Source: a virus. Taken from it: a DNA stretch of 34,843 nt. The stretch covers positions 1 through 34,843 of IMG/VR virus record IMGVR_UViG_3300031952_000075; one strand, given 5' to 3'. The notes under the pieces were generated by a model. That model was not told the origin of the DNA. It searched no databases and worked only from the letters and a program-made list of their open reading frames with translations. The position numbers were made by a program, and so were the translations under genes. Positions 14,060-30,723 of the stretch are shown here, in pieces (the first letter of the stretch is position 1; the number at the start of each line of letters is the position of its first letter).

Positions 14060-14788
14060 TCATAAATAATCCATGGGATCCCACTCGGCGGTTCGCTTCC
14101 CGCTCCGGGCGGGTGGCTGGTCGGGAATTATATCGTCCTTATACAACCGCGTAAACCACCATGCGCCCATCAGGTAGGTGGTGACCATGTCGTCGTGAAC
14201 CTCCGTCTCGTCGGCTTCCCAGGTCTTGCGCCTCTTCCCGTCTGGCGGCTTGAAGTGCTTGAGTTGCTTTTCGAACTCCTCCCGCCAGCGCAGGGCCTGG
14301 GCGATGCGGCAGCGGTTCTGCTGCAGGACGATCTGCCCGGCGGAGACCAGGTCCTTCTTGGGCACGTGGATCTCGGCCAGGCCGATGGCCGGCTGCAACT
14401 TGCCGGCCTGGGCCGGCTGCAACTGTCCGAAGCCCGCTTTGATCTCCTTGATCTTCTCCCCGCCGGTGGCGAGGATAGAAATGGGATTGAGCAGCTTGGC
14501 GCGCATCATGTCAATGACCGGCTCCCCGACGCCGGCGCCGTCCACCAGCAGGTCGTGGTTGTTGGCCAGCTCCTTGGTCCCGCAGAGAGTGACCGCGTTG
14601 TCGACCAGCTCCTCGTAGCTGCGCCTCAAGAACTTGTCGATGAAGACGATATCCATCAGGAATCGCAGGCGGTCGACGTTACCTATGGGCAGGGCCTTCT
14701 CGACGATCAAGCCGGTGTGCTTGGCGACCATGAAGATGGCGGAATCCCGGCGCTTGCCCGGGTCGCAGAGCACGGCGTACTCGTTCAC
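14060..14788 (-). CDS. terL: Terminase large subunit, nuclease domain ORF (242 aa)
   Basis: The sequence shows an RNase H-like terminase nuclease: an acidic residue at D9 in EYAVLCDPGKRRDSAIFMV, a second at D83 in LLVDGAGVGEPV, and an HDD motif at 198-200 followed by MVTTYLMGAWW. It starts with GTG at 14788, overlapping the stop of the ATPase ORF by four bases (GTGA), and GGAGG lies seven bases upstream. The nuclease would cut concatemeric DNA at packaging ends. In most phages it is fused to the ATPase; here it is a separate ORF. Confidence 0.88.
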   Translation of the reverse strand: MNEYAVLCDPGKRRDSAIFMVAKHTGLIVEKALPIGNVDRLRFLMDIVFIDKFLRRSYEELVDNAVTLCGTKELANNHDLLVDGAGVGEPVIDMMRAKLLNPISILATGGEKIKEIKAGFGQLQPAQAGKLQPAIGLAEIHVPKKDLVSAGQIVLQQNRCRIAQALRWREEFEKQLKHFKPPDGKRRKTWEADETEVHDDMVTTYLMGAWWFTRLYKDDIIPDQPPARSGKRTAEWDPMDYL

Positions 14789-15840
14789 CTGTGAACCTCC
14801 AGGACTGGGATATCGGCGATCTCCGGAAGACCGAAGCTCATCGGCTGCACCGCGTCGCTGAATGCTCGCTCGATATGGTCATAAGCGAAGACCTGCATTT
14901 CCGGCTCCACGAACTCCACCAGGTACTCTTGCCTGAATAAGCGCGGGCCCATCTCCTCGAGGTTATCGAGCTGCTCTTTCTGATCCAGGTGCCGCGGGCT
15001 GTGGAACGCCTGGATCCCCTTCTTCGCTCGCAGGGCCTGGTACTGTGCCTCGCTGAGCGCTGCCGGCAGCAGATCCCAGGCTTGATCGTCCACATCCCAT
15101 GGCGCCCGGATCTCGTATTTCTCCCACTGCTCGCTCGCCTGGGCGCGGTAGAAAAATCCCTCCCGGCCGTTCGGGGTGCTGATGGCGAGGAGCTCGCACC
15201 AGGGGTTGTCCGTCAACATGGGTCGGATGCCGGAGCGATAGACGCCATCCTCGATGCGGGCGGCCTCGTCCAGGATGATCAGGTCGATCTTCCGGTTGCC
15301 GGTGATGTCCGGGTTGGAATAGCCGCGGGCGCCCTTCTCTGTGGCCGGGACCACCAGGATGCGCGTGCCGTGCTCCGTCTCGAGGAGGGAATCGGAGTCG
15401 CGGACGATCCGTGGGTAGTGGGGATCCCGGCTGATGTAGTCCTTGATTTTTTCCATGTCCTCGGTGGCCTGCTTTTCGGTGGCCCCGACGACGATGGCCA
15501 TGCAGCCGTAGAAGAATCGGCCCAGGTGGGCGGGCTTGGCGGCGATGATGGTGCTCTTCCCGGACTGCCTGGCGCCGTTGATCAGTTTCCGCTTGTGGGT
15601 GCTGGCCAGGACGCGTTGCTGCCAGAGAAAGCGGTTGGGTGTCAGGCCCAACGTGTAACGCAGAGGGTCGAGCTGGTTGGCCAGGTCCTCGAGGCATCCT
15701 CTGGGCAGTGGACTGTAGTGTTTCCTCACCCTGAACTGCCGCTGCAATAGCGCCGGCTGCTCCTGCTTGGGCGGCTCCATCTTGGATCTTCCCGGGGCGT
15801 TGAGAAAACGGATCAAGTCCTCGTAGCTGCTTCGGCTCAC
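14785..15840 (-). CDS. terL: Terminase large subunit, ATPase domain ORF (351 aa)
   Basis: Walker A-like GARQSGKST is at 89-97, Walker B DLIILDEA at 186-193, and a coupling-type STPNG motif at 221-225. This is the packaging ATPase half of a phage terminase. It ends in TGA just as the nuclease ORF begins, with no nuclease residues of its own. It overlaps the small-terminase candidate by four bases (15837). Together the two ORFs total 593 residues, the size of a normal podovirus large terminase, so this looks like a gene split at the domain junction. Confidence 0.9.
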   Translation of the reverse strand: MSRSSYEDLIRFLNAPGRSKMEPPKQEQPALLQRQFRVRKHYSPLPRGCLEDLANQLDPLRYTLGLTPNRFLWQQRVLASTHKRKLINGARQSGKSTIIAAKPAHLGRFFYGCMAIVVGATEKQATEDMEKIKDYISRDPHYPRIVRDSDSLLETEHGTRILVVPATEKGARGYSNPDITGNRKIDLIILDEAARIEDGVYRSGIRPMLTDNPWCELLAISTPNGREGFFYRAQASEQWEKYEIRAPWDVDDQAWDLLPAALSEAQYQALRAKKGIQAFHSPRHLDQKEQLDNLEEMGPRLFRQEYLVEFVEPEMQVFAYDHIERAFSDAVQPMSFGLPEIADIPVLEVHR

Positions 15841-17811: not shown

Positions 17812-18163
17812 GCCGGTATAACCTCCGTTGGGTATGGCAGGCGGTGCCCCCGCGTTTGAACAGCCGGCAGGCGTCGGGCCGGGTTTCGTATATGTTGCAG
17901 TGGCCGCTGCCAGGCAGGAAGGGGCAATAGAAATTCCAGGTTGGGCTTTTTCCGTAGGTCTGCCCATCGTCTGCCCTTTTCCTGGGCATTAGTCGGTACT
18001 TGGCGGGCTCGTACTCCTCCGCCGCGAGCGCTGCCTTTATGTTCCGGCCCAGGTCCTGCGGCTTCAGCTTGAGCACCAGGTGGTGGCAGCAGGCATGGCA
18101 CGCGATGCAGGATTCGCCAATCAACCGCTGTTCCACGGCTGTTTTGCTGGGCTTTTTCACCAT
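17795..18163 (-). CDS. YkgJ-like CxxCxxCC cysteine cluster protein (122 aa)
   Basis: From the ATG at 18163 the protein shows CIACHACC (C19, C22, C25, C26), then YCPFLPGSGHCNIYETRPDA followed by CRLF. This is the zinc or iron-sulfur cluster family (YkgJ, PF03692 by memory). Members are small metal-binding proteins of mostly unknown role, present in bacteria and some phages. It overlaps both neighbours, so it belongs to the operon. An in-frame ATG at 18211 lies inside the previous gene and is less likely. Confidence 0.85.
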   Translation of the reverse strand: MVKKPSKTAVEQRLIGESCIACHACCHHLVLKLKPQDLGRNIKAALAAEEYEPAKYRLMPRKRADDGQTYGKSPTWNFYCPFLPGSGHCNIYETRPDACRLFKRGGTACHTQRRLYRHANQG

Positions 18164-24608: not shown

Positions 24609-24812
24609 TCAGGCTAAAAGCGATAAACTGCCCTCCGGCGATTTTGGGACCTGTTTGCGGCCCTTCTCTGCGCAAACAGGATTCCGCGCGATGAGTTGCC
24701 AAACGCCATCCCGCGCCAAGGCAGATGGGTTGCGCCAGCGTTTCTTTGCGCGGCAGTAGGCCTCGATTTCGGCCCGCTCTTCGTCGGTGATGGTGAAGGA
24801 AATCCTGCTCAC
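24609..24812 (-). CDS. Small ribbon-helix-helix-like protein (67 aa)
   Basis: A GTG start at 24812 follows AGGAGGG. The protein begins SRISFTITDEERAEIEAYCR, a strand followed by two helices (then NPSALARDGVWQLIA), resembling the Arc/MetJ fold. It is short enough to be a complete regulator. It lies between the exonuclease gene and the nuclease-like insertion and could regulate the early operon. Confidence 0.6.
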   Translation of the reverse strand: MSRISFTITDEERAEIEAYCRAKKRWRNPSALARDGVWQLIARNPVCAEKGRKQVPKSPEGSLSLLA

Positions 24813-26936: not shown

Positions 26937-27179
26937 CGGCCTCGCTTTGGATCCCAATGGTGCGTCGTCTAAAAACGCTGCGCTTTCGAAGCGGCCTCCT
27001 TCCGGTACGATATCGACTTCGTGCAGCGCCGCGACCAGGATATAGGCGTTCTGCTTGGCGCGGGCCATGCGCGGGTCGATGGGGTTGGGCCCGGCGGCCA
27101 GATCGATATCGCGCTTGAGGGCGAAGGCCCGCTCGCTGATCCGGGCGTACAGGTTCTGGCTGATTTCAAGTGTGGGCAT
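26934..27179 (-). CDS. Unknown small protein (81 aa)
   Basis: ATG 27179 follows AAAGGAG at eight bases. The sequence (MPTLEISQNLYARISERAFA, then DLAAGPNPIDPRMARAKQNA) is helical with no known domain. It overlaps the end of the HTH gene by 14 bases, so it is likely cotranscribed. An N-terminally longer frame to 27386 is antisense-like shadow and lacks a start signal. Confidence 0.65.
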   Translation of the reverse strand: MPTLEISQNLYARISERAFALKRDIDLAAGPNPIDPRMARAKQNAYILVAALHEVDIVPEGGRFESAAFLDDAPLGSKARP

Positions 27180-27390
27180 CGGTGTGCTCCTTTCTGGTTT
27201 TCTCCTGCTCTCGCAGGAACTGCTCGACGTGTCCTTCCGAGAAGCGCAGGATCTTATAACCCAGGCGGTAGTAGCCCAGGCGCTCCTCCCGGCACCAGCG
27301 CTGAATGCTCTTGTCGGAAACATGCAGACGGCGCGCGACCTCCTCTGCGGTATAGAGGCGCTCGCCGGCACGGATCGCCAGCTCACTCAT
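27166..27390 (-). CDS. Excisionase/MerR-type HTH protein (74 aa)
   Basis: The protein has the single-helix-turn-helix pattern RLYTAEEVARRLHVSDKSIQ followed by RWCREERLGYYRLGYKILRF, typical of the excisionase-type HTH family (phage Xis or Cox-like regulators). AAAGGAG precedes the ATG. It is the first gene of a minus-strand set that leads to recombination and replication genes. It shares its first 20 bases, with one mismatch, with the 190-residue gene at 28194. It could be the excisionase or an early regulator. Confidence 0.85.
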   Translation of the reverse strand: MSELAIRAGERLYTAEEVARRLHVSDKSIQRWCREERLGYYRLGYKILRFSEGHVEQFLREQEKTRKEHTDAHT

Positions 27391-27476
27391 GGCCGCTCCT
27401 TTCGTTGAAAACGCCCCCTGGGTCGGCTACGCTGGGAGGGGGACTCACAACCATAGCCAAGGACAGGAGGCGTCGA

Positions 27477-27650
27477 ATGACCGAAAGCGAAATCAGAATC
27501 AAGGCGCAGGAATGGACCTTCATGTTCTTCGCGGCCTTGCCCGACAAGGAAAAAGAAAGACTTCTGGGACTCCGAAAATCCGAAAGCGAATATCTGGATA
27601 GAATGCAGTCCGTGGGTAGGCTCATGCTTTCGTATGTCGCTCGTCTGTAG
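27477..27650 (+). CDS. Small plus-strand protein in control region (57 aa)
   Basis: ATG 27477 is preceded by AGGAGG. The protein (MTESEIRIKAQEWTFMFFAA, then LPDKEKERLLGLRKSESEYL) is helical and charged with an aromatic patch. It is divergent from the HTH gene and its last 29 bases overlap, tail to tail, the end of the 190-residue minus gene. The isolated opposite-strand position suggests an independent control, for example an antagonist, but no family is recognised. A weak promoter (TTGAAA, 17 bases, TACGCT) lies upstream at about 27404. Confidence 0.7.
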   Translation: MTESEIRIKAQEWTFMFFAALPDKEKERLLGLRKSESEYLDRMQSVGRLMLSYVARL

Positions 27651-28194
27651 GGGGTTCCAGCGCTTCCGTTGCTGTCTTTAACCCCGCCGGCGCTGGCGGC
27701 TTGCCCGCCTCAATCCAGCTTTCGTAGGCCGTCTTCAGTCCAGGCGGCGCCGACGGCTTGCCCGCCTCAACCGGAACAGGTGCTTCGGGCGTTTTCTTCG
27801 GAGCTTCCGCCTCTGGATCTATCACCAGGTAGGGAGGGAGAAGAAAAGGCATAGAAGCCTCGATGGTCAGCAAGAGGCCCTTAGCCGTCCGCTGAACCGT
27901 TTTCACGTAGGATTCTTGCAGGTTCAGCTCTGCCAATACCTTCTGCAGCTTCCTGCCGTAGCTCTGCCAGACCGGCCAGTTGGCAGGAAGCGGCACCGGG
28001 CTCTTCCTGGTTTCCTCCGGGGGCGGCGCCGGCGGGGGCTTCGGATTCCCCCCAGGAAGATATTCAAGATCATGAGTAAGCCGATCTAAGCGAATCACCC
28101 CGCCAAGCCGGAACGCATTCTTCGTCTCTCCCGGTCTGGCCGCGCGCCTCTGGAATAGCCGCTTGAGTAATCGACGGATCGCCAGCTCGCTCAT
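27622..28194 (-). CDS. Unknown protein with 19-residue tandem repeats (190 aa)
   Basis: Its ATG overlaps the stop of the RHH gene (ATGA). The N-terminus is basic (MSELAIRRLLKRLFQRRAAR), a Pro-rich linker (PKPPPAPPPEETRKSP) leads to a helical domain, and the end contains two copies of a 19-residue unit beginning VEAGKPSAPPGLKTA and IEAGKPPAPAGLKTA, also visible as a 57-base DNA repeat. Function is unknown. Coupling with the RHH gene suggests a partner in the control operon. Confidence 0.75.
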   Translation of the reverse strand: MSELAIRRLLKRLFQRRAARPGETKNAFRLGGVIRLDRLTHDLEYLPGGNPKPPPAPPPEETRKSPVPLPANWPVWQSYGRKLQKVLAELNLQESYVKTVQRTAKGLLLTIEASMPFLLPPYLVIDPEAEAPKKTPEAPVPVEAGKPSAPPGLKTAYESWIEAGKPPAPAGLKTATEALEPPTDERHTKA

Positions 28195-28358
28195 GCCGGT
28201 TTTCCCCCGGTTTCACCCTGGCCCAGGGCTTCCATCCCTCGCTCGATGAGGAAAATTACCTGGTTGGCCATCGTTCGCCTCTGCTGTTCCGCATCGCGCT
28301 TTACCTTAACCTTGAGTTCCTTGGGAACCCGAATCGTCATCACATCTGTCTTTGCCAT
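28191..28358 (-). CDS. Arc-like ribbon-helix-helix repressor candidate (55 aa)
   Basis: The full protein starts MAKTDVMTIRVPKELKVKVK and continues with a second helix ending NQVIFLIERGMEAL. The strand (VMTIRVP) plus two helices is the MetJ/Arc fold. A sigma70-type promoter (TTGACA 28393-28388, 17 bases, TAGAGT 28370-28365) would place the transcript start at the ATG, so the message appears leaderless, and no ribosome binding site is seen. It ends ATGA with the 190-residue gene. Its role as repressor of the divergent operon is inferred. Confidence 0.8.
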   Translation of the reverse strand: MAKTDVMTIRVPKELKVKVKRDAEQQRRTMANQVIFLIERGMEALGQGETGGKPA

Positions 28359-28440
28359 AATGAAACTCTATATGACAATATATGACTTGTCAAGAGAAAA
28401 ATAGCGAAATGTTGCCCATTTCTGTGCTATACTTCAGGCC
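28359..28440. promoter_or_regulatory. Divergent promoter/operator of two RHH genes
   Basis: The 82-base space has a minus promoter (TTGACA-17-TAGAGT) and, on plus, an extended -10 (TG-C-TATACT at 28425-28433) seven bases before ATG 28441. Both predicted start points fall at or beside the ATG. Two abutting 10-base direct repeats TATATGACAA / TATATGACTT (28369-28388) and the palindrome TGAC-TT-GTCA (28383-28392) lie over the minus -35/-10 region and are good candidate operator half-sites. RHH proteins commonly bind arrays with 10-11 base spacing. Confidence 0.65.
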
Positions 28441-28728
28441 ATGAGCAGGGCAAGAAAAGACTATTTCGACGAGCAATTGAAAAAAGAACGCATCACAATC
28501 CGCATCGATGGGGATCTCCGAAAGAGCCTGGAATCCTTCTCGAAATCAGGAATCTACAAGGGGGAGGATCTACAGGTAGTCATTCGAATGTTGGTACGGG
28601 CAGGCATTGAGGTAGAGGAGCGTGTGAAAGAAATGCGAACCGCCGCGATACGGGAAATGCAACAAAAGGCGGCTGCTTTTCAAGCCGTGGGAAAGGCTTC
28701 CCCTGGGCGGACGTTGCCGCGTGGTTGA
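28441..28728 (+). CDS. Ribbon-helix-helix-like regulator, divergent (95 aa)
   Basis: The protein has ERITIRIDGDLRKSLESFSK, a strand followed by a helix, then EDLQVVIRMLVRAGIEVEER, a second helix, in the MetJ/Arc order, with N- and C-terminal helical extensions. There is no ribosome binding site, and the extended -10 is seven bases before ATG, so the transcript is probably leaderless, as for the lambda cI message from PRM. It faces the other RHH gene and starts the plus-strand group that runs toward the integrase, so it may be the lysogeny-maintenance regulator. Confidence 0.75.
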   Translation: MSRARKDYFDEQLKKERITIRIDGDLRKSLESFSKSGIYKGEDLQVVIRMLVRAGIEVEERVKEMRTAAIREMQQKAAAFQAVGKASPGRTLPRG

Positions 28729-28798: not shown

Positions 28799-29149
28799 AT
28801 GCCAGATGAACGATCGCGACGTTTCTTGGAGCAGCGCCCTATTTTCTGGATCAGTCTTGCCTCTGTACCATTCCTCTTGATTGCGGTCGCGCCCATTAGT
28901 TCTTACGGCTACTATGTCTTCCTCCGCTTGGTAGTACTTATCTCCGCAGGAATATCTGGAGTTGGTGCTTGGGGAGCAAAGAAATACATCTGGGCTGTAC
29001 TGTTCTGGCTTGTAGCGATTCTTTTCAATCCGCTCATCCCGGTTCATCTGGACAAGGAAACTTGGGTCGTTTTGGATCTTCTCTGTGCGGCCCTCATGCT
29101 CCTCGGCTCCTTCGCAGTGAAACGGCCTCCGGGCCGGCCGCCGGAATGA
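28799..29149 (+). CDS. Small multi-pass membrane protein, possible moron (116 aa)
   Basis: GGGAGGG precedes ATG 28799. Three to four hydrophobic segments are visible: about 17-33 (FWISLASVPFLLIAVAPISS), 38-58 (VFLRLVVLISAGISGVGAW), 64-75 (WAVLFWLVAILF) and 90-105. ILFNPLIPVHLDKETWVVLD resembles a signature of a widespread small membrane family (DUF6804 by memory, not checked). It is less GC-rich than the virion genes and lies between regulator and integrase, where superinfection-exclusion or lysogenic-conversion genes often sit. Confidence 0.75.
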   Translation: MPDERSRRFLEQRPIFWISLASVPFLLIAVAPISSYGYYVFLRLVVLISAGISGVGAWGAKKYIWAVLFWLVAILFNPLIPVHLDKETWVVLDLLCAALMLLGSFAVKRPPGRPPE

Positions 29150-29158
29150 TTCGAACCT

Positions 29159-29446
29159 ATGCGAAAAATCAGCGAAGATGAATTAACGTACATTCGGGAT
29201 CAGGCCTATCGCAAGGGTTACCAGGACAGGGGAAGTGAAGTTGAAGAAGCAAGAGAACGCGGTTATGAGCGAGGAAAAAAAGAAGGCGCGCAGGAAGAAA
29301 GACGCAGACTCCTTATCGAAATATCGAATATCCCGCTCAAGAAAAAAGAATTTGGTATAGATTCTGTTGTCTATCTCACAAGATACAAAAAAGAAGTTCT
29401 CAAAAAGCTTGGCTGGCAATATTGGCCCATTGGCTCACCAGATTGA
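29159..29446 (+). CDS. Unknown charged protein (95 aa)
   Basis: The protein (MRKISEDELTYIRDQAYRKG...) is Lys/Glu/Arg-rich and predominantly helical, with a short hydrophobic C-terminal part (SVVYLTRYKKEVLKKLGWQY). It starts nine bases after the membrane protein stop without a good ribosome binding site, and its last 12 bases overlap the end of the convergent integrase gene. A/T-rich codons set it apart from neighbours. No family is recognised. Confidence 0.6.
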   Translation: MRKISEDELTYIRDQAYRKGYQDRGSEVEEARERGYERGKKEGAQEERRRLLIEISNIPLKKKEFGIDSVVYLTRYKKEVLKKLGWQYWPIGSPD

Positions 29447-30595
29447 CTCGATGCTCCCCTGGTACTGCTTCAACGCCGCGAACTGATCCGGATCGAAGCG
29501 CAGGTAGATGTCCGAGACCTCCAGGGAACGGTGGCCCATCATGTCCATGATCGCCCGCTGATCCAGGTTGCCCTCGGCCCGCGAGCGGAAGGTGTAGCGC
29601 AGGCTGTAGGGGACCAGGATACGCTCGCCCACGCGGATCTCGGCAGTCTTCAGCCCCGTCTTGAAGCGGCTTTTCAAGTACTCCTTGCGGATCGGTTTGC
29701 CGTCGAACAGGAACAGGTAGCCCTCCTGGATCCCCGCGAGCTCGACCCAGGAGGTGAGCAGCTCCATGGTGCGCTTGGGCACGAGAACCAGGCGCCGGCG
29801 GGTGTCCACTGTGGTGCTCTTTTTGGGCAAGGCAAGCGCGTCTTCGCTGTCGATCTGCCGGTCGATCAGGATCCCGTTGTGCTCGGCGTAGAGCTGCTCG
29901 AGGTGCAGGGCCCTCCCCTCCCCGGGCCGCAGGCCCGCGTGTAGCATCACGCGGAAGAGGACCCCGAACATCAACCCGGTGACGTCTTTCGGCGCGACCT
30001 TCCAGATCGTGGCCAGCTCCTCCTCCGTGTCCGGGAACAGGGCCCGGCACTCCGCGGCGCTCAGGATGTCCTTCTGCATCGAGCGCCGGGCGAAACGCCG
30101 GAAGCGCGGCGCTTGGCTGATCTTGCGGGCCCGGAGGGCCTCCTGCATCAGGATGTTGACGGTGTTCAGAATCCCGTTCTTGGCGCTGCCCGACAGACTC
30201 AAGCCCCGGAGCCACGTCTCTACGTCCACCGGGCCGATGTCCGCCAGGAGTCGCTTACCCAGCGCCGGCAGGATGTGCTGGGTGAGATTGTGCCGATGCT
30301 CGTAGACGGTGTGCTTCTTGATCCCCCCCTGCTCGGCCTTCCAGGCTATGTAGGGGCAGCGGCCGGGAATGAAGAAGTCTTGCGCAAACGCGGCCAACGT
30401 GCCGGAGATCTTCTGCCGGTCCTGGGCCTTCCACTTCTCCAACTCCCGCAGGGCATCGGTCTTGAGCCGGCAGCCCGTGGAGCGGGCCGTCCTCTTCTCC
30501 CCTTCCCACCACCAGGCGTACCAGATCCGGTTCCGCGCGGTGCGGTTGGGTCTCACATACAGGTGATACTTGTCGGGTGACGAACGTCGAGCCAT
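29435..30595 (-). CDS. int: Tyrosine recombinase integrase (386 aa)
   Basis: The catalytic residues of a phage integrase can be read: R223 in HAGLRPGEGRAL, K258/K259 in LALPKKSTT, R333 in VPYSLRYTF, H355 in MMGHRS and Y364 in SDIYLRF. The usual His of HxxR is Tyr (Y330), as in some phage integrases. The N-terminal part is a SAM-like core-binding domain (about 60-160). ATG 30595 (MARRSSPDKYHLYVR) is chosen over an upstream TTG; GGAGGGG lies 14 bases before it. The gene is next to the att core, as expected for a temperate phage. Confidence 0.93.
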   Translation of the reverse strand: MARRSSPDKYHLYVRPNRTARNRIWYAWWWEGEKRTARSTGCRLKTDALRELEKWKAQDRQKISGTLAAFAQDFFIPGRCPYIAWKAEQGGIKKHTVYEHRHNLTQHILPALGKRLLADIGPVDVETWLRGLSLSGSAKNGILNTVNILMQEALRARKISQAPRFRRFARRSMQKDILSAAECRALFPDTEEELATIWKVAPKDVTGLMFGVLFRVMLHAGLRPGEGRALHLEQLYAEHNGILIDRQIDSEDALALPKKSTTVDTRRRLVLVPKRTMELLTSWVELAGIQEGYLFLFDGKPIRKEYLKSRFKTGLKTAEIRVGERILVPYSLRYTFRSRAEGNLDQRAIMDMMGHRSLEVSDIYLRFDPDQFAALKQYQGSIESIW

Positions 30596-30662
30596 GCGCC
30601 CAATGGTAGCCCCTCCGTGCAAGAAATCAAGGATTCTGTTGTCATTCTGTAGCGAGTTGGGC

Positions 30663-30696
30663 AAAAAAGAAGCCGCCCTCGTTTGGGGGCGGCTTC
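30663..30696 (-). terminator. Intrinsic terminator between att core and integrase
   Basis: A perfect 10-bp stem (GAAGCCGCCC at 30669-30678 with GGGCGGCTTC at 30687-30696) is followed on the minus strand by TTTTTT. It would stop transcripts from the lysis and fibre genes before the integrase. In a lysogen the same hairpin would lie about 27 bases after the reconstituted tRNA gene. Confidence 0.9.
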
Positions 30697-30723
30697 TAAT
30701 TCTTTGCCGGCTTTGTACTTATT

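Follow-up and report, generated by a model that had tools for sequence, protein, structure and literature searches.

A divergent pair of Arc/Mnt-kind genes as the probable lysis-lysogeny switch of a temperate podovirus

The record and its gene order

The window analysed here is the entire IMG/VR record IMGVR_UViG_3300031952_000075, 34,843 bases in length. Its portal protein is distantly akin to those of epsilon15-type podoviruses, with 158 matching phage records that are all below 60% identity; the RecA-like ATPase was also tried as a lineage marker and was poor. The minus strand carries, in leftward order, the lysis genes, a terminator-like stem, a tyrosine integrase, the switch region, the early genes, the terminase, the portal, and the capsid and tail genes. 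The early genes past the switch comprise a RecA-like ATPase, a PD-(D/E)XK nuclease, an HTH_36 protein, ParB and a methyltransferase. The features in and around the switch region are the following, where RHH stands for ribbon-helix-helix.

27166-27390, minus strand: HTH_17 gene of the early operon (PF12728, 4.6e-11)
27622-28194, minus strand: second gene of the early operon, 190 aa, with no family match in Pfam or PHROGs
28191-28358, minus strand: early-side RHH gene, 55 aa, Arc-like (Pfam RHH_5, PHROGs), leading the leftward early operon
28365-28393, minus strand: early promoter TTGACA-17-TAGAGT, 10/12 of consensus, 6 nt before the ATG at 28358
28369-28392, no strand: operator candidate over the early promoter, made of the abutting 10-bp repeats TATATGACAA/TATATGACTT and of TGACTTGTCA
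28425-28433, plus strand: extended -10 element TGCTATACT, 7 nt before the plus ATG
28441-28728, plus strand: prophage-side gene, 95 aa, probable RHH (phrog_582, hhalign, AlphaFold), Mnt-like in position and size
28799-29149, plus strand: membrane protein DUF6804 (PF20619, 1.8e-20; hydropathy), co-oriented with the plus RHH gene
29159-29446, plus strand: unknown ORF of 95 aa, last of the plus group, with a 12-bp overlap with the end of the integrase gene
29435-30664, minus strand: tyrosine integrase (PF00589, 2.7e-11; phrog_1, 8.5e-34), convergent with the plus genes
30668-30697, no strand: terminator-like stem-loop between the lysis genes and the integrase

One further record, G001, has 99.96% identity to window positions 1-22400. 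Between the right and left window ends it carries about 7.5 kb more, and this extra DNA is filled by one ORF of 2602 aa with no match in Pfam. Because G001 stops before the switch, the switch is known from one record. At the contig end, tandem repeats of about 126 bases form a gene (window 34494-34843, G001 1-480), to which the assembly break is probably due. The integrase and the portal alignment were searched in genome_contigs with no match, and therefore no bacterial host was assigned; an Rfam search of the window returned none. The large terminase (14060-15840) consists of two overlapping ORFs, 14785-15840 and 14060-14788, and the same split is present in the relative G004.

The two regulators and the space between them

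Pfam assigns the minus protein to RHH_5 at 7.3e-8; its match to Pfam Arc, at E 0.005, is under the family cut-off (17.1 vs 20.4 bits). Its three best PHROGs by E-value, among those naming a regulator or a partition protein, are phrog_795, phrog_228 and phrog_3178 (3e-5 to 3e-4); P22 Mnt and Arc hit the same three, with E-values of at most 4e-8. Precisely, phrog_795 and phrog_3178 are the two best PHROGs of Mnt, and the three together are the three best of Arc. We considered the name of phrog_795, 'partition protein ATPase', as a mere label, because Mnt and Arc both have this PHROG as their best match. Identity is 28% to Mnt and 27% to Arc, over 43-45 aa, and no homologue was found in viral_contigs. 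By these sequence matches, the minus protein is a clear RHH protein of the Arc/Mnt group.

The minus RHH gene overlaps the next gene, of 190 aa, by 4 bases. The HTH_17 gene further on also scores HTH_3 at 0.0018, under the cut-off, and we take it to be AlpA/excisionase-like. Through a 22-base near-exact repeat at window positions 27370-27391 and 28174-28195, the 190-aa and HTH_17 genes share their first residues, MSELAIR.

For the plus protein no RHH family was found in Pfam, and PHROGs gave only phrog_582, 'Arc-like repressor', at E 0.094. Its hhalign comparison over the RHH core with 13 switch-region proteins gave P 0.016, versus P 0.59 for the one neighbouring control protein compared in the same way, and a leave-one-group-out profile test gave 3.6 bits, a score that 32 of 5136 background ORFs also reached. 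A tblastn search of plasmids found only three Salinibacter records, annotated as CopG RHH proteins, at E 2-6. No homologue was found in viral_contigs, nor in phages at E 0.1, where one hit at E 6 appeared with the limit set at 10. Sequence searches of solved structures returned designed or reconstructed proteins and chance hits only. A single-sequence model of the plus protein was poor (pLDDT 61) and its structure matches were non-significant, with RHH proteins (MazF-type antitoxin, NikR) at the top of the ranking. The second model, obtained by AlphaFold with an alignment of RHH-type proteins only, which makes it lean to the RHH fold, had pLDDT 85 and the RHH helix layout; its PDB matches were at E >1. 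The structural rows for the plus-protein model included the SO_1444-SO_1445 chain, an endoribonuclease antitoxin, PrpA, ParD and Arc, at Z 5.5 to 3.7, in a VIA-align list that also has unrelated rows at similar Z, and a viral-library search with the model gave no match at 0.001. As a whole, these comparisons suggest that the plus gene probably encodes an RHH protein, with a probable RHH fold. The minus and plus proteins of the window are not detectably related to each other (P 0.32). At 95 aa, the plus protein would presumably have no room for a LexA-like protease domain. The DUF6804 protein encoded behind it is a candidate for a prophage-expressed envelope (exclusion) gene product.

The two ORFs diverge across positions 28359-28440, that is 82 bp. 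A preliminary description of this DNA had presented them as two RHH genes facing away from that space; its layout and its minus RHH gene are borne out, while the plus gene is an RHH gene only with probability. When the upstream 60 nt were shuffled by mononucleotides, 0.25% of the shuffles gave a promoter match as good as that of the minus gene. On the plus side the -10 element is TATACT with TG before it, and there is no recognisable -35 element. We searched upstream of both genes for the Shine-Dalgarno-like motifs GGAG, GAGG, AGGA and AAGG and found none, in agreement with the earlier statement that neither gene has a ribosome binding site. The promoters adjoin the ATGs, at 6 and 7 nt, as had also been described, so that transcription is predicted to start at the ATG and both switch genes are predicted to be leaderless.

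Within the early promoter, TATATGACAA (28369-28378) and TATATGACTT (28379-28388) are exact abutting repeats, with no further copy in the window within one mismatch, and the palindrome TGACTTGTCA lies at 28383-28392. The 8-bp direct repeat with a spacing of 10 was reached in 1.5% of dinucleotide shuffles of the spacer (P ~0.015), and is thus mildly unusual with respect to chance. The longest inverted repeat was reached in 17% of such shuffles, and we rejected the palindrome as evidence by itself, being no better than chance (P 0.17). Hence both elements noticed earlier over the minus promoter are present, and the direct repeat is the one that stands out. Ten bp come to roughly one turn of the helix, which is what side-by-side binding of RHH dimers would call for.

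The absence of a CI/Cro-type gene, also noticed earlier, was checked on 98 ORFs of at least 60 aa from position 17,950 to the window end, leaving aside genes already assigned or scanned. The only HTH families in this set were HTH_17 and HTH_36; ParB, outside the set, carries its own HTH. In the structural half we scanned 39 of the 89 ORFs, chosen mainly from the minus strand, with no HTH found. No HTH_3 or CI family reached 0.001 in the 98 plus 39 ORFs, and for both switch genes Pfam and PHROGs gave no HTH family. The claim is therefore upheld for the scanned ORFs of the window (39 of 89 in the structural half) and for the extra 7.5 kb of G001, where no CI-type gene was found.

The same slot in portal relatives

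Portal alignments led to 45 loci in viral_contigs, the window's near-copies included, and the portals of the relatives are 34-48% identical. Among 29 records searched, an integrase was present in 12 and RHH_5 in 5. Sequence was taken from 29 records (26 of the searched 29 plus G003-G005) and mapped in part, and 11 of them showed a recognisable switch region: G006, G008, G009, G010, G011, G025, G026, G028, G029, G030 and G033. G010, G026 and G028 were merged with near-identical records, which, with the window added, gave nine distinct modules.

Five of the nine modules are divergent RHH-type pairs, namely those of the window, G008, G009/G010, G011 and G025/G026/G028. In G008 the prophage side matches 56B_RHH at 6e-6 and the early side was assigned to RHH by eye only; in G009/G010 the early side matches phrog_795 at 1.5e-6 and the prophage side phrog_228 at 0.037; in G011 the early side matches phrog_228 at 0.003 and the prophage side was assigned by profile, at 16.6 bits; the G025 group has RHH_5 at 2.8e-5 and phrog_4738 at 1.5e-5. 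Three other modules (G030, G033, G006) have a CI-type HTH gene opposite a small RHH-like gene. The CI-type gene of G030 matches HTH_3 at 3.7e-6, that of G033 is HTH only via PHROG repressors at 0.004, and G006 has HTH_3 at 4.6e-8 opposite a protein with weak matches to ParD (0.002) and HicB (0.007). The early genes of G030 and G033 are 59% identical over 34 aa, their RHH status being assigned by eye. In the ninth module, G029, a CI-type gene stands opposite a gene without an RHH match. We did not count G007, where a lipoprotein gene lies between two RHH-like genes, nor G013, whose RHH-like gene had no visible divergent partner; the maps of G031, G017 and G021 showed no clear switch.

In G009, G011, G025 and G026 the two pair partners are related (0 of 1000 shuffles as high), and in G008 marginally so (0.042). 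By tblastn, proteins of different modules are mostly not detectably related, the exceptions being that the early protein of the window finds G013 and that of G011 finds G009/G010; by blastp, the early protein of the window matches the prophage-side protein of G025. Little likeness between pairs and yet a constant layout are as would be expected of immunity modules. In fact, the slot looks like an immunity slot, because in it four other modules are RHH/RHH and four have a CI-type HTH gene.

Several features recur around the slot. An early promoter of at least 9/12, ending 5-9 nt before the start, was found in six of the nine modules (window, G008, the G025 group, G030, G033 and G006), versus 9 of 513 background ORF starts (Fisher P 1.5e-8), or 3 of 81 in AT-rich upstream regions. 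The background consisted of the starts of ORFs of at least 120 aa, near-copies dropped, taken as longest-ORF starts, and the start codons of the switch modules were chosen by the analyst, with a downstream shift in G006 and G011. In these six modules, then, the early gene looks leaderless by its promoter position. A normal ribosome-binding site precedes the early gene in G009 and G011, two of the five RHH/RHH modules; the G009 record has no integrase or resolvase match. The early geometry TTGACA-17-TAGNNT-6-ATG is identical in the window, G025, G026 and G028. The prophage side looks leaderless only in the window (8/12) and in G011 (9 or 10/12 by hexamer).

The best direct repeats of the spacer were spaced by 10 bp in the window, G009 and G025, by 20 in G026, by 8 in G008 and by 24 in G011. 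For G025 and G026, the direct repeat taken by itself gave P ~0.1 and the 5-mer count 0.019 and <0.001, respectively, and in the G011 spacer neither test stood out. In seven of the nine modules (window, G008, G011, the G025 group, G030, G033, G006), the prophage-side regulator is followed on its own strand by a gene whose product is a membrane protein, a lipoprotein or an exported protein; the exceptions are G009, where it is on the opposite strand, and G029. An HTH_17 gene was found in the early operon of all five modules tested for it: window, G025 (weak, 0.02), G029, G030 and G033.

Record G026 (IMGVR_UViG_3300034684_000184) has two prophage-side RHH genes, at 42584-42817 and 99-347, which are 60% identical. 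They sit on the two sides of the contig end, close to the early RHH gene, an arrangement such as a duplication of the repressor gene would produce.

Interpretation and comparison with known switches

In phage P22, Arc and Mnt repress as their annotation describes: Arc 'represses Ant gene' and Mnt is for 'maintenance of lysogeny'. A spacer of 90 bp separates the divergent genes mnt (83 aa) and arc (53 aa), sieA lies on the mnt side, and the annotated Arc operator (14798-14818) falls within the arc/ant promoter (14793-14821). The window resembles this immI region in having two divergent RHH genes, the plus one being probable, across a similar space (82 vs 90 bp), with similar sizes of the first operon gene (55 vs 53 aa) and of the prophage-side gene (95 vs 83 aa), with a candidate operator inside the operon promoter, and with DUF6804, a candidate exclusion gene, on the plus side as sieA is on the mnt side. 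It differs from immI in that ant is missing, the operon in question is the early one, next to the integrase, and no c2/cro was found. Moreover, the window starts are predicted to be leaderless, whereas P22 arc and mnt score 7 and 6 on the same scale, and the plus protein, unlike P22 Mnt, is not demonstrably of the Mnt family. As far as sequence can tell, the anatomy is that of P22 immI almost feature by feature, moved to the primary immunity position. The preliminary description had set the pair apart from Arc and Mnt; this is not so for the anatomy, and by analogy the pair would be a known kind redeployed.

Our preferred reading, to which we give a probability of about 0.66, is that the pair has primary control of the lysis-lysogeny decision in a temperate podovirus, with divergent RHH repressors of the Mnt/Arc kind replacing CI/Cro. 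The switch function, which we infer, had been proposed before and gains support from the position between the integrase and the early operon and from what relatives have in the same slot. In the prophage, the plus protein, in the Mnt position, would be made from the extended -10 promoter along with the DUF6804 membrane protein, and would bind the 10-bp repeats over the early promoter. The leftward early operon, that is the minus RHH gene, the 190-aa gene, the HTH_17 gene and then the recombination and replication genes, would thus be silenced. Upon infection or induction, the minus RHH protein, in the Arc position, would be made first from the early operon, and would damp its own promoter and/or the plus promoter, leading to commitment to lysis. 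As in lambda and in c2/cro of P22, a divergent repressor pair would control the early operon; those CI/Cro switches have the HTH fold, whereas no such gene was found here.

P22 Mnt and Arc operate beside C2/Cro, and by the same token the pair of the window might be a secondary, immI-type module that regulates an accessory function (an antirepressor, the 190-aa gene), with another, unrecognised repressor holding lysogeny. A look-alike exists: a scan with the G025-type protein found divergent RHH/RHH pairs in two viral contigs outside the clade, L216 (2641-3138) and L217 (1358-3123), whose four proteins all match RHH_5 (7.8e-9 to 7e-4), and in L217 P22_AR_N and Bro-N domains follow in the operon behind one RHH gene. 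In the window, however, the genes behind 28191 contain no P22_AR_N, Bro-N or other antirepressor domain, what the minus RHH gene leads is the early operon itself, the 98 plus 39 ORFs and the added 7.5 kb yielded no second repressor candidate, and four of the nine modules have CI-type genes in the same slot; we consider this reading unlikely. The repeats lie on the minus promoter only, which would also suit a minus RHH protein acting alone as autoregulator of the early operon, with the plus gene being unrelated, expressed in the prophage and not a repressor, a possibility to which the low scores of the plus protein as RHH (phrog_582 E 0.094, 3.6 bits) lend some weight. This is quite improbable, given that the plus protein sits where relatives have RHH or CI-type regulators, that its hhalign P was 0.016 versus 0.59 for one control, and that tblastn against plasmids, though at E 2-6, found nothing but records annotated as RHH CopG.

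Many RHH proteins are antitoxins, and the 4-base overlap of the minus gene with its neighbour would fit an antitoxin (of the ParD, VapB, HicB or MazE kind) with a toxin partner in place of a switch. Yet neither the 190-aa neighbour nor the other neighbours match a toxin family in Pfam or PHROGs, and a divergent second regulator and a recurring position near the integrase are not a toxin-antitoxin layout, so we hold this to be very improbable. With no such family matches, both the toxin-antitoxin and the antirepressor readings were rejected for the window.

Returning to the pair as the primary switch, two of its traits have precedents. A switch with two leaderless transcripts has a counterpart in PY54, whose divergent switch genes cI and cro both have leaderless mRNA (PMC4488713); they encode lambda-related CI and Cro proteins and not RHH proteins. 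RHH repressors can hold lysogeny, as does F55, which regulates lysogeny in the archaeal virus SSV1 (PMC9608457); unlike the window, SSV1 is an archaeal fusellovirus, and no divergent RHH partner is described in the available part of that source.

In bacterial phages, RHH repressors are known from P22 as side regulators, and in the open-access literature, which leaves most subscription journals outside, we found no bacterial phage with a primary switch of two RHH proteins. A wider proposal, on which we are evenly balanced, is that in a clade of temperate podoviruses distantly akin to epsilon15 immI-type divergent RHH pairs serve as the only switch, the prophage-side repressor is swapped freely between RHH and CI-type HTH, the early regulator is made from a leaderless transcript, and immunity is a plug-in slot and not a lineage of CI/Cro proteins. 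The modules compared here form, within one clade and in the same slot, a natural series (RHH/RHH, HTH facing RHH-like, HTH with another partner), which makes testable whether the repressor fold matters to the lysis-lysogeny decision, and also what induces a repressor of 95 aa that is too short to include a protease domain. The comparison is also a caution that phages without a recognisable CI gene may still be temperate.

Within the early operon of the window there is, besides, an ORF of 67 aa with a GTG start (24609-24812, minus strand) and without a Pfam or PHROG family match. It encodes a third RHH-like protein, with an hhalign P of 7e-4 versus the switch RHH proteins.
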